From Thermococcus sp. 4557 (GTDB lineage: Archaea > Methanobacteriota_B > Thermococci > Thermococcales > Thermococcaceae), in the NCBI RefSeq assembly GCF_000221185.1, contig NC_015865.1, positions 806,001-870,000 of the forward strand: a DNA stretch of 64,000 bases, written 5' to 3'. Under the pieces are notes generated by a model. That model saw nothing but the letters and a program-made list of their open reading frames with translations, had not been told where the DNA came from and did not search any database. Every line of letters begins with the position of its first letter. Within the stretch, counting starts at the first letter, position 1. Shown piece after piece: positions 40,902 to 45,241 of this stretch. The position numbers and the translations under genes were made by a program.

Positions 40902-41270
40902 TCACCCCACGGAAGTCAGGTTGCAGGTCACGGTGGCGTTTCCGTTCACCACCATCTTGTACAGCAGGCTCTGATTGGAGTAGCACTGCGGGGTAAAGCT
41001 GGTCATGAGTGAATAGCTGAGCATCGTGAAGTAGAGCCAGAACAGCGCCCAGCCCCAGAAGGCCTTCTTGAGCACTGCCCGCTCCTCTGGTATCTCGGGC
41101 GGCAGTCCCTTGATGACCGCGAGCACGAACCTGTCGATGATGAAGTACAGGGCCAGGCCTATGAGCCACCCATACTGTATCTTAGCCGCAGCCACTCCGC
41201 TGATTATCCCTGTTATGACCCCCCATAGATAAACCGTGAGTGAAAATTTATGCTCGATAGCCAGTTCCAC
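40902..41270 (-). CDS. Small membrane protein upstream of rpiA
   Basis: A protein of about 122 residues with three or four membrane helices (TVYLWGVITGIISGVAAA; GWLIGLALYFIIDRFVLAVI; WALFWLYFTMLSYSL). Its outside C-terminus carries two cysteines and sequons. I start at GTG 41270, which is spaced from AGGTGA; the GTG at 41279 lies in that site. Probably co-transcribed with rpiA. No family is recognised with confidence. Confidence 0.7.
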   Translation of the reverse strand: MELAIEHKFSLTVYLWGVITGIISGVAAAKIQYGWLIGLALYFIIDRFVLAVIKGLPPEIPEERAVLKKAFWGWALFWLYFTMLSYSLMTSFTPQCYSNQSLLYKMVVNGNATVTCNLTSVG

Positions 41271-41315
41271 ATTCTTCACCTACGACTAGCTTTTAAAAGG
41301 GGCTTTAAAACCTTT

Positions 41316-42647
41316 CTACCCTATGGTCTCAAGGAACCTCCTGCCCCTCTCCGTCAGCCCGTAATAGACCCGTCTCCCCTTTCTGTGGGTCTCCTCGATA
41401 AGCCCCATGCTCTCGAGCTCGCGAAGGTGCTGGTAAACGGCCTGGTACTTGAGCGGCTTCTCCAGTGCCTCCCATATCTCATAGCCGTACATGCTCCTCC
41501 CGCTCAGCAGCTTCAGTATCTCGAGCTTGGTTCCGCCGACGGTGAACTTCTCCCTGCTCTCGGAGTAGTGTCCCTTGAGGCCCGAACTTGTAACTATAAG
41601 GGCTATCCTGTCGTCGCGTTCGAAATAATTCTCCTCCGCCAGTTTGAGGAGTGCAGGGACGATAACCGAAGAGGCGTACTCCGCGAATATCCCCTCCCCG
41701 GCAAGGAGCCGCTGCCCCAGGTCAAGCTCGTCCTCGCCGACGAGAACAGCGGTTCCCCCGCTGGCGTGTATAGCCTCCAGGGCGAGCTCTTTCATGACTG
41801 GGCTCTTCACGTACAGGGCCAGCGCCTTGGTCGGCTCGGCCCGCGGCTCAACTCCAAGCACCTCGCTCGCTATGGGGGAGCACTTCTCGGCCTGAACGGC
41901 GATCAGTTTCGGCATCTCATCAACCACACCCACCTCGATGAGCTCCTTGAAACCCTTGTAGATGCTGTAGAGGTTGCTGCCGCTTCCAGTCGGGACTATC
42001 ACGTGCGTCGGGTTCAAATCCTCCCAGAGCTCGAAGGCCAGCGTTTTCTGCCCCTCCAGACCGATGAGATTGCTCTCGGGGGTGACGTTGTAGAGCCCCC
42101 TGCCCTCAGCCAGCCCCTCCGCGTAGTTTATGCCCTCGTCCACGCTCTCCCCGTACCGTATGAGCTTTGCCCCGAGGGCCACTATCTGATTGAGCTTGCC
42201 CTGCTCCACGAGCTTCGGCACGACGGTGTAGGCTGGTCTGCCGGCTCTGGCGGCGTAAGCGGCAAGGGAAGCTGCCGCGTTCCCATTGCTCGCCACCACA
42301 AAGCCGTTTTCTGCGTGGGGAAGGCCATAGGAAACGGCAACGGTCGTGAGACGGTCCCTGAAGGAGCCGGTGGGGTTCCTGGTCTCGTCCTTGATGAAGA
42401 CGTTGAGCCCAAGCTCGCGGCCGAGTTTGGCCCTTATGAGGGGCGTACCCCCCTCCCGAAGGCTCACGACCTCAGGGACGTCCGGCAGAAGCTCCCGGTA
42501 TCTCCAGACACCGGGTTCACGGTTCCGCCACCTGGACGGGTCGACTTTCTCGTAATCGTAGGGTATCTCCAGACGCTCCCCGCAGGAGCACCCAGGGGGA
42601 ATAAGGGAAGAATAGAGACGCCCGCAGCTGGGACAGCGGACCTTCAT
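41316..42647 (-). CDS. Threonine-synthase-like protein fused to a winged helix; PLP Lys replaced by Arg
   Basis: A 443-residue fusion. It begins with a zinc ribbon (CPSCG...CSCG, 5-23). A fold-type II PLP domain of the threonine synthase kind follows (about 50-355), and a PadR-like winged helix ends it (about 370-443: KLEILKLLSGRSMYGYEIWEAL, YQHLRELESMGLIEE, GLTERGRRFL). The PLP lysine of GSFKDR is Arg97 here (NPTGSFRDR, codon AGG at 42357-42359), while the phosphate cup GSGSNL and the SNGNAAAS loop are kept. It may sense an amino acid or PLP and bind DNA rather than catalyse. Start at ATG 42647 after GGTG; 25 bases after fttA. Confidence 0.82.
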   Translation of the reverse strand: MKVRCPSCGRLYSSLIPPGCSCGERLEIPYDYEKVDPSRWRNREPGVWRYRELLPDVPEVVSLREGGTPLIRAKLGRELGLNVFIKDETRNPTGSFRDRLTTVAVSYGLPHAENGFVVASNGNAAASLAAYAARAGRPAYTVVPKLVEQGKLNQIVALGAKLIRYGESVDEGINYAEGLAEGRGLYNVTPESNLIGLEGQKTLAFELWEDLNPTHVIVPTGSGSNLYSIYKGFKELIEVGVVDEMPKLIAVQAEKCSPIASEVLGVEPRAEPTKALALYVKSPVMKELALEAIHASGGTAVLVGEDELDLGQRLLAGEGIFAEYASSVIVPALLKLAEENYFERDDRIALIVTSSGLKGHYSESREKFTVGGTKLEILKLLSGRSMYGYEIWEALEKPLKYQAVYQHLRELESMGLIEETHRKGRRVYYGLTERGRRFLETIG

Positions 42648-42672
42648 TTTCACCACTTCTCGATCCCGGCCG

Positions 42673-44619
42673 TCACTTGAGCCTTATGGCGTCGAGGTTG
42701 TTCGGAGCGCGAGTTGAGAGGCCGAACTTCTTGTGTATGCTCGTGCTGAGGTCGAGGCACTTGTGGGCCTCGCCGTGGACGGTTATGACGCGCTCCGGCC
42801 TGGGCCTCAGGCGGGCTATGTAGCTTATGAGCTCCCTCCTGTCGGCGTGACCGGAGAAGCCGTCTATGGTGTGAACCTCCATGTTGACGTTGACTACCTC
42901 CGTCTTTCCGCCCTCTCCGACGAGCGGTATCTCGCGTAAACCTCTCTGCACCTGCCTTCCGAGGGTTCCCTCCGCCTGGTAGCTCACGAAGACCATGCTG
43001 TTCTTCGGGTCTGAGGCGAGCTGCTTGAAGTACTCAACGCTCGGTCCGCCGACGAGCATGCCCGAGGTGGCTATGATTATGGCCGGCTCGCCGGAGTCTA
43101 TGATGTCCTGCCTCTCGCGTGAGTTAGCGACGGGCTTGAATATCGGGTTGAGGAACGGGTTGTAGCCCTCGTGGAATATCTGCTCGCGCAGGTGCCTGCT
43201 GAGGTACTCCGGATAGGCCGTGTGGATCGCGGTAGCCTCCCATATCATTCCGTCGAGGTAAATCGGAACCTCGAGTCCGCCTATCCTTGCATACTCCTCG
43301 AGCACCATCATTATCTCCTGTGCCCTACCGACGGCCATGGCCGGGATGAGCACCTTTCCACCGCGCCTGATGGTCTGGTGGATGACCTCTATGAGCCTCT
43401 TCTCCGCCTCCTCCCTGGGCATCTGGTAGTCGTTGCTTCCACCGTAGGTGGACTCCATCACGAGGGTCTCGAGGCGCGGGAACCTGCTGACGGCCGGCTC
43501 GAAGAGCCTGGTCGGGATGAACTTGAAGTCGCCGGTTATGGCTATGTTGTGGAGCCCGTTGCCTATGTGGAGGTGCACTATGGACGATCCAAGGATGTGG
43601 CCGGCGTTGTGAAGGGTGAGCCTCATGTCAGGGGCTATGTCGCGGACCTCGCCGTAGTCGAGGGTTATGGTGTGCTTTATGACCTCTTTGATGTCCCTCG
43701 GCCTGTAGAGCGGCTCGACGCCGTTCATCTTCTGAATCTCGATGAAGTCCTGCTGGAGAAGAACCATCAGGTCCCTCGTCGGGGGAGTCGTGTATATCGG
43801 CCCGTCGAAGAGCTTGTAGCGGAAGAGGTACGGCAGCATTCCACTGTGGTCGAGGTGGGCGTGGGTTATGATGATGGCATCCAGGAGACCCGCGTCGAGG
43901 ACGTAGCGGAACTCCGGGGCCTCGAAGTGCGGGAAGGCCTTCTTGGGATCGCGGAGGGCGGCTATGTTGACACCAAAGTCGACCAGAACGTAGCTCTCGT
44001 TGGTCTGGACAAGGAGGGCGCTCCTTCCGACCTCACGGAAGCCCCCCAGGCCGGTTATGCGTATCCAATCGCTCTTGACCTCAGGCTTGCGGTAGATGTT
44101 CCTGCCCGCCTGGCGGAGGAACTTCCTCCTGTCCTTGGCCTCGGCCTGGAGTATCTGCCTTATCGAGTAGATGGTCTGGCTCTGGAGCGGAGGGGTTCTG
44201 ACGACCCTCGGCGCCCAGTGAACCTTCTGGGTTATGAGCCTCAGGGTTTCGCCGTTCTTGCCGATGACGAGGCCCGGCTTCTTGGCCTCTATGAGGACCT
44301 CACCGACGGACGGGTCGAAGCTTATGTTGGTTATCTCCGCCTCCGCCGGAACCAGGGCCTTTATCATGTCCTCCGCCTTTTCTGGCGGGAGGAGGACATC
44401 CGGGTCGGGGCGGACGCTTATGCGCTTTTTAAGAACCTTGGCGAGGTTCTTTATCAGCTCCCCGTCCCGCATTATGGCCTCAGGGTTCCTAACGTATATG
44501 ACCAGCTCGGGACCCTCGAACTCAACGTCGGTTATCCTCGCCTCGGGCGGAACCATCTGGCTTATTACAGCTTTTATATCGCGTAGTATATCTTCGACGA
44601 AGGTCTCTCTTCTTATCAC
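42673..44619 (-). CDS. fttA: FttA/aCPSF1, beta-CASP ribonuclease and transcription termination factor
   Basis: Archaeal CPSF73-like nuclease that ends transcription by cutting nascent RNA. The 648 residues have two KH-like domains (to about 175, with VIGKNGE), the metallo-beta-lactamase domain with HAHLDHSG (about 245-252) and further metal His residues (GHILGSS, GDFKF), the beta-CASP domain (LVMESTYGG, ATSGMLVGGPS), and a C-terminal HGEAHK. I start at GTG 44619, four to five bases behind GAGGTGAT. The GTG at 44628 lies within that site. It begins ten bases after psmB and is probably co-transcribed with it. Confidence 0.95.
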   Translation of the reverse strand: MIRRETFVEDILRDIKAVISQMVPPEARITDVEFEGPELVIYVRNPEAIMRDGELIKNLAKVLKKRISVRPDPDVLLPPEKAEDMIKALVPAEAEITNISFDPSVGEVLIEAKKPGLVIGKNGETLRLITQKVHWAPRVVRTPPLQSQTIYSIRQILQAEAKDRRKFLRQAGRNIYRKPEVKSDWIRITGLGGFREVGRSALLVQTNESYVLVDFGVNIAALRDPKKAFPHFEAPEFRYVLDAGLLDAIIITHAHLDHSGMLPYLFRYKLFDGPIYTTPPTRDLMVLLQQDFIEIQKMNGVEPLYRPRDIKEVIKHTITLDYGEVRDIAPDMRLTLHNAGHILGSSIVHLHIGNGLHNIAITGDFKFIPTRLFEPAVSRFPRLETLVMESTYGGSNDYQMPREEAEKRLIEVIHQTIRRGGKVLIPAMAVGRAQEIMMVLEEYARIGGLEVPIYLDGMIWEATAIHTAYPEYLSRHLREQIFHEGYNPFLNPIFKPVANSRERQDIIDSGEPAIIIATSGMLVGGPSVEYFKQLASDPKNSMVFVSYQAEGTLGRQVQRGLREIPLVGEGGKTEVVNVNMEVHTIDGFSGHADRRELISYIARLRPRPERVITVHGEAHKCLDLSTSIHKKFGLSTRAPNNLDAIRLK

Positions 44620-44629
44620 CGGTATCACC

Positions 44630-45241
44630 TCATTCCAGAAGACCCTTTATTTCCTCCTCGCTCCATTCCTTGTATCCTTCATCCGTGACGGTAACGAGGG
44701 TAACGCCACCGCCCGTAAAAACGTCCCTTCTGGTGGCGGCTTTTATTGCCCTGAGCGCGAGCTTAACGCCCTCTTCCAGTGTCATATTCTCCTTAAACTC
44801 CGCCTCAAGTATCGAGAAGGCGAACTCCATACCCGAACCGGCGGCCGTGAACCTGTCCTCGGTAACGCCACCGGCCATGTCCACGGAATAAAGCCCGGGC
44901 TCTCCGGTGTGGCCCGCTATGAGAAACCACCCAAAGTACGGCATGAACCTGCTCCCGTGAAGCACGTTAGAAGTCAGGGTCGCGAGGGCCTTAACGCTCA
45001 TCTCCTTACCCACCTTGGCCCGGTAGAGTTTGGCCTCGGCCCTCAGAAGCCTGACGAGGCTGAGAATGTCGCCGACGCTGCCGGCACCGGCCAGGGCCAG
45101 GTGGTCGTCTATCCAGAAGACCTTGGTAACGTTCTCTGAGAGCACCATGTTGCCCAGAGATGCCCTTCTGTCCGCTGCCAGGACTACGCCGTCCTTACAT
45201 ACAATGCCGACCGTAGTCGTTCCCTTTAGCTTTTCAGTCAA
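44630..45241 (-). CDS. psmB: Proteasome beta subunit
   Basis: Catalytic subunit of the archaeal 20S proteasome. A seven-residue propeptide (MTEKLKG) ends before the catalytic threonine in [21 protein letters not shown]. The Asp of that segment and the Lys of VTKVFWIDD complete the site, and [12 protein letters not shown] is a typical later motif. The 203-residue length is normal. The start codon is TTG at 45241, six bases behind GGGGTG. fttA follows on the same strand after nine bases. The genome probably has a second beta gene elsewhere. Confidence 0.95.

Follow-up and report, generated by a model that had tools for sequence, protein, structure and literature searches.

We identify a threonine-synthase-like protein fused to a winged helix, encoded in a window of Thermococcus sp. 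4557 DNA (the window being the whole stretch of 64,000 nucleotides analysed), as a candidate archaeal repressor of vitamin B6 genes, and we put the probability that it is a fold-type-II pseudoenzyme sensing PLP in this role at roughly 0.8, with binding of PLP and of DNA inferred. What the computations establish is the fusion itself, the loss of the Schiff-base lysine, a cofactor site that is retained beside a substrate site that is lost, operators at B6 genes, and the co-occurrence of operator and regulator. That the fused protein binds this operator, that PLP is its ligand, and that it is a repressor for which PLP serves as co-repressor are inferences.

A threonine-synthase-like domain joined to a PadR-like winged helix

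The fused open reading frame runs on the minus strand from an ATG at 42647 to a stop codon at 41316-41318 (Table 1). Its PALP and PadR matches both exceed the Pfam cut-offs (39.7 bits for PF03551 against a gathering score of 27), which bears out the C-terminal PadR-like winged helix proposed in an earlier note on this DNA, and Pfam gave no GntR match in the protein. The best fold matches of the PALP domain are threonine synthases (Foldseek; 2d1f, 6cgq and 1v7c, E down to 1e-29), and NCBIfam NF004170 labels the whole protein threonine synthase with 746.6 bits. An AlphaFold2 model computed with 67 family members has a mean pLDDT of 91.9; in it the two domains are joined by a disordered linker at residues 358-369, and the winged helix consists of helices and a beta wing. 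The recognition helix lies at about residues 401-413 and reads YQAVYQHLRELE; across the 67-row alignment H407 is invariant, and Y405 and Q406 are conserved in at least 90% of rows. The same alignment has C8 and C22 of the N-terminal segment invariant and C5 and C20 at 90% or above, and we infer that this segment binds zinc.

In the window, the gene belongs to a minus-strand stretch (40902-45241) in which it comes after psmB and a gene for a KH-domain CPSF-like nuclease, and before genes for a small membrane protein and rpiA. In Thermococcales, the window included, the fused gene usually comes after those for the proteasome beta subunit and KH-CPSF. The normal threonine synthase that the earlier note expected elsewhere in the source genome (G000) is present twice, as lysine-bearing paralogues at G000:C1:888962-890002 and 1599369-1600424.

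Table 1 Features of the fused gene and its product, with window coordinates
Feature	Position	Strand	Basis
Fused gene, threonine-synthase-like domain plus C-terminal winged helix, 443 aa	41319..42647	-	Open reading frame and translation
N-terminal zinc-ribbon-like segment, four Cys (C5, C8, C20, C22)	42582..42635	-	67-row alignment
PALP domain (fold type II, PLP enzyme), residues 61-353	41589..42467	-	Pfam PF00291, E 1.4e-65
Arg97 codon AGG, in place of the PLP Schiff-base lysine	42357..42359	-	Sequence, within NPTGSFRDR
Substrate/cofactor loop N121-G122-N123	42279..42287	-	N123 kept; N121 for Thr of threonine synthase
Gly-rich phosphate cup TGSGSN, residues 220-225, kept	41973..41990	-	G221/G223 invariant in Arg fusions
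Thr353, retained counterpart of the residue that faces the pyridine nitrogen	41589..41591	-	Alignment column counts
Flexible linker from sensor to DNA-binding domain	41535..41573	-	pLDDT below 50 at residues 358-369
PadR-like winged helix, residues 372-443	41319..41534	-	PF03551, E 4.9e-10; Pfam span 377-440

Association with a transporter component of the PdxU/HmpT family

Homologues of the fused protein were sought in 94 Thermococcales species genomes, and the search was then widened to 398 Thermoproteota genomes and to the other members of the window's phylum. Among some 65 fused genes in Thermoproteota, about 45 adjoin, or lie within one or two genes of, members of a single membrane protein family, the ECF transporter S-component PF07155, and this arrangement is found on either strand and alike in clades that carry Arg and clades that carry a hydrophobic residue at the lysine position. 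In Thermococcales the fused gene is far from both pdxST and the S-component gene. The sole PDB match of the S-component is chain S of 4hzu, which is HmpT/PdxU2 (E 2.5e-11), and the S-component of the source genome reaches 130.5 bits with PF07155 against a cut-off of 26.7. PdxU and PdxU2/HmpT, the known ECF transporters of B6, are PF07155 members, in a field where B6 transporters are still largely unknown (PMC9997740), and HmpT carries pyridoxamine (PMC4860826). Compared with the HmpT pocket, the archaeal S-components have D/E at E41 and W/Y/F at W76 but differ in carrying Lys for H84 and Glu for Q87, and these last two are invariant in all archaeal PF07155 loci that we examined. The substrate of the S-component is, by inference, a B6 vitamer; because Lys and Glu replace the pocket His and Gln of HmpT, the vitamer may not be pyridoxamine.

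Carriers of the fusion also differ from other genomes in their B6 economy. Among complete Thermococcales, the S-component is present in 52/52 genomes with the fusion versus 12/23 without it (p = 3e-7). Among Thermoproteota, pdxS is present in 6/69 genomes with the fusion versus 178/329 without (p = 4e-13), so that it is absent from 63 of the 69 carriers; this test is conservative because the group without fusions may contain a few that went undetected. Transport standing in for synthesis is what usually marks a vitamin importer, and the Thermoproteota carriers would take up B6 where synthesis is missing.

The surroundings of the S-component gene vary among groups. In up to 19 Thermoproteota loci a gene resembling AIR synthase/HypE-ThiL comes directly after it (for example L133:1441-2451, L130:4503-5513 and L080:2-571), and may encode a B6-related enzyme of unknown function. 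In one Thermoproteota group (L073-L076) an Lrp/AsnC regulator gene and a divergent glutamine-synthetase-like gene come before the fused gene, and an ABC/ECF-type ATPase gene comes after the S-component. In Thermococcales (L223, L225, L229-L232, L239 and L240) the S-component gene usually comes after a class III aminotransferase-like gene, which in turn neighbours a thioredoxin-reductase-like gene; on the opposite side lies a deoxyribose-phosphate-aldolase-like gene.

Putative operators at pdxST and the S-component gene

The S-component promoter of Thermococcus contains a conserved palindrome at the TATA box, and genome scans for this palindrome led to pdxS. The putative operator is TTCAAGTT-NN-AACTTGAA. 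With at most two mismatches to the 18-mer TTCAAGTTNNAACTTGAA, the source genome has just three sites: two in tandem, 24 bp apart, at the promoter of pdxST, which encodes PLP synthase (G000:C1:1085751-1085768 and 1085775-1085792), and one at the PF07155 S-component gene (1420509-1420526). All other matches in this genome have three mismatches, the level of a reversed-pattern control, and none of the operators lies within the 64-kb window. Two perfect 14-mer sites in other genomes (G013, 886943; G071, 1291654) were left out of the regulon because one of them follows a serine hydroxymethyltransferase-like gene and the other is inside a reading frame.

We then compared the distribution of the operator with that of the fusion, calling operators in Thermococcales at three or fewer mismatches to the 14-mer core in all of the promoters available. 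An operator precedes pdxS in 46/46 genomes that carry the fusion versus 2/23 that do not (p = 9e-16), one of the two exceptions being a genome only 73% complete (G052) in which no fusion was detected, and it precedes the S-component gene in 56/66 versus 0/12 (p = 1.5e-8). Since fusion status changes at least 4-5 times on the pdxS tree, the association does not come from one clade. The genomes are nevertheless related rather than independent, and the pdxS tree and the use of two phyla lessen the effect of kinship without removing it. In Thermoproteota, a palindrome centred on GTTNNAAC stands before the S-component gene in 19/46 cases versus 4/337 control genes (p = 4e-16), and its centre, GTT-NN-AAC, is that of the Thermococcales operator; such a site also lies immediately ahead of the start of at least one Thermoproteota pdxS (L259).

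At both pdxST and the S-component gene, the sites overlap the TATA box or lie just downstream of it, a position from which a bound protein would obstruct the archaeal polymerase; the usual place for an archaeal activator is upstream of BRE/TATA. Site position thus makes it less likely that the protein governs the same B6 regulon as an activator that PLP releases, in the manner of bacterial PdxR, whose apo form activates pdxST with PLP as anti-activator (PMC5320631); we leave this reading a small but real chance. A reading that we consider improbable is that the palindrome belongs to another regulator, with the fused protein acting as a co-sensor or merely co-occurring with it. Binding of the palindrome by the fused protein has not been shown, and in Thermococcales distance separates the fused gene from its presumed targets, as this reading would have it; against it, the fused protein has a winged helix of its own, operator and fusion co-vary several times on the tree, and in Thermoproteota the fused gene adjoins the operator.

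The earlier note had named the promoters of threonine or vitamin B6 genes, and that of the gene's own operon, as possible targets. The B6 part stands, in that operators are found at pdxST and at a gene of the PdxU family and track the fusion. Autoregulation was rejected, as no operator was found ahead of the fused gene in any of 70 cases (Thermoproteota and class relatives). The threonine branch fell as well. Descent from threonine synthase would suit a protein that controls threonine metabolism in response to threonine, homoserine phosphate or serine, and so would seven Thermoproteota loci in which a lysine-type thrC is divergent from the fused gene (L088, L089, L094, L097, L144, L145 and L148); at three of these loci a homoserine-dehydrogenase-like gene is close by. 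But the 70 fused genes without an operator include the thrC-divergent ones, neither threonine synthase gene of the source genome has a site with two or fewer mismatches, the substrate site has been lost, and the thrC neighbourhood may reflect no more than an origin by tandem duplication. We accordingly rejected a threonine regulon, and hold control of threonine genes to be a poor prospect.

Loss of the Schiff-base lysine across the fused family

The repressor that we propose descends from an enzyme whose catalytic lysine it lacks, and this loss runs through nearly the whole family. Residues were counted in an alignment of unique sequences, in which 128 fused proteins are readable at position 97: Arg occurs in 110, Leu in 5, Met in 3, Thr in 3, Ile in 2, Val, Ala and Phe in 1 each, and Lys in 2. 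Lysine is thus absent from 126/128 fused homologues from Thermococcales and Thermoproteota, and it is present in 12/12 stand-alone threonine synthases from the same loci, two of which are those of the source genome. Three proteins have Arg without the helix, and each is frameshifted or ended by a contig edge. The replacement of the PLP lysine by Arg in GSFRDR, reported in the earlier note, is therefore confirmed, and so is its linkage to the winged helix; a sequencing error at the codon is ruled out, and chance with it, because Arg is shared by nearly all orthologues in Thermococcales and also by Thermoproteota proteins of about 35% identity. These counts likewise support the note's idea that a sensor of the PLP fold has been coupled to a DNA-binding domain, for which there are as yet no binding data.

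In a maximum-likelihood tree of the synthase part, computed with column 97 left out, the fusions form one side of a branch (SH-aLRT 88), and those with hydrophobic residues fall mainly in a clade of 13. The two lysine fusions sit within Arg clades and, being nested there, look like reversions. Both have regained Lys in GSFKDR (L064, from genome G002, and L142, from genome G295). They would represent a natural covalent version of the regulator, although no PLP-binding data exist to support this. Genome G002 keeps operators at both pdxS and the S-component gene.

The hydrophobic subfamily (L123-L136) has L/M/T/I/V/A in place of Lys. No GTTNNAAC palindrome was found at its S-component promoters, where TAAGCT..AGCTTA-like repeats are seen instead in L126, L128, L129 and L132, and the subfamily seems to use another operator. 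Because the charge at position 97 is lost and the palindrome is absent, its ligand or its site may differ; this sister subfamily may sense a different B6 form.

Retention of the cofactor site and loss of the substrate site

We mapped residues by alignment to the threonine synthase of Thermus thermophilus, with their roles taken from general knowledge of threonine synthase structures. The PLP contact N123 is kept in 109/109 Arg fusions, G221 and G223 of the PLP phosphate loop do not vary among them, and position 353 is Thr in 104/109 Arg fusions and in 16/16 other fusions. On the substrate side, the loop Thr is replaced by N/D in 107/109 Arg fusions, and the next Thr has mostly become Ala, Met or Leu. 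The Arg of NPxRxEGQKT (position 196), found in 9/12 stand-alone synthases, appears in no fusion among the residues listed, which are G/V/S/T/A in Arg fusions and F/L/A/P in the others. The earlier note had held that phosphate cup and substrate loop both remain; this is correct for the cup and for N123, but not for the loop Thr. As far as the alignment can tell, then, the fused protein has lost its substrate contacts and retained its PLP contacts. A PLP site that is kept while the substrate site and the Schiff base are lost is the pattern to be expected of a PLP sensor, and a protein of this fold type can hold a PLP adduct without the lysine, as the Foldseek match 1d6s illustrates (according to its entry title, a K41A mutant of O-acetylserine sulfhydrylase with a PLP adduct).

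An active threonine synthase that the winged helix regulates or anchors, in which Arg stands in for Lys without loss of function, has the fold and the high-scoring NF004170 label to recommend it, but it can hardly be reconciled with a lysine missing from 126 of 128 fusions (16 of which have L/M/T/I/V/A/F, residues incapable of forming an aldimine), with altered substrate-contacting residues, or with the two lysine-type synthases in the same genome. The NF004170/PRK05638 equivalog model describes the fused regulator family, and its name, threonine synthase, is for this reason probably wrong for its members.

Relation to known systems

With threonine synthase (thrC; PRK05638/NF004170; PDB 1uim, 1v7c and 6cgq) the fused protein shares the fold, the GSFxDR motif, the cofactor-site residues and a similarity of about 30-40%. 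It differs in lacking the Schiff-base lysine, in its replaced substrate residues, in the added winged helix and in operator sites that place it in B6 rather than threonine control.

With the MocR/GabR/PdxR regulators it has in common the pairing of a PLP-enzyme fold with a winged helix, and sites at genes for PLP synthesis and transport. MocR proteins, however, combine fold type I with a GntR helix at the N-terminus, whereas the fused protein is of fold type II (PALP), carries its PadR-like helix at the C-terminus and lacks the PLP lysine; the earlier note had already set it apart from MocR by fold type. Bacterial PdxR controls pdxST and PdxU transport genes, and MocR is reported to be absent from Archaea (PMC5320631). 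By analogy, and with binding inferred, the fused protein may work like PdxR without belonging to the MocR family, the two being unrelated.

ThiR and RbkR, each an enzyme-derived domain with an HTH, are likewise archaeal vitamin regulators, but they differ in fold, vitamin (thiamine and riboflavin) and operator. Both appear in the predicted regulons of Pyrococcus furiosus, a list without a B6 counterpart (PMC10746257). We did not find the fused threonine synthase regulator, or any archaeal B6 regulator, in the open-licence literature (subscription journals were outside our scope); one paper describes another kind of thrC fusion, to cysH.

Discussion

The mechanism that we propose for the repressor is as follows. 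When PLP is plentiful, the retained cofactor site would hold PLP non-covalently, either free or as a PLP-amino acid adduct. Once loaded, the protein would occupy the palindrome as a dimer or a larger assembly, and from its position at or downstream of the TATA box it would keep RNA polymerase from pdxST and from the S-component gene. When PLP falls, the protein would release the DNA, and both synthesis and uptake of B6 would rise.

We think it probable, at somewhat less confidence than for the protein of the window itself, that the fusions make up an archaeal family of B6 transcription factors, built by joining a winged helix to threonine synthase and removing the lysine, so that free PLP is measured and not used. 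If so, archaea would have arrived at a second, independent solution to the problem that bacteria solve by MocR/PdxR, with a fold-type-II counterpart. The analysis names a candidate archaeal B6 regulator together with its operator and its regulon across two phyla, ties the archaeal PF07155 transporter family to B6, and sets right the name "threonine synthase" that databases give to proteins of many archaea. Should the proposal hold, the family would show clearly how an enzyme can become a sensor of the cofactor it once used.
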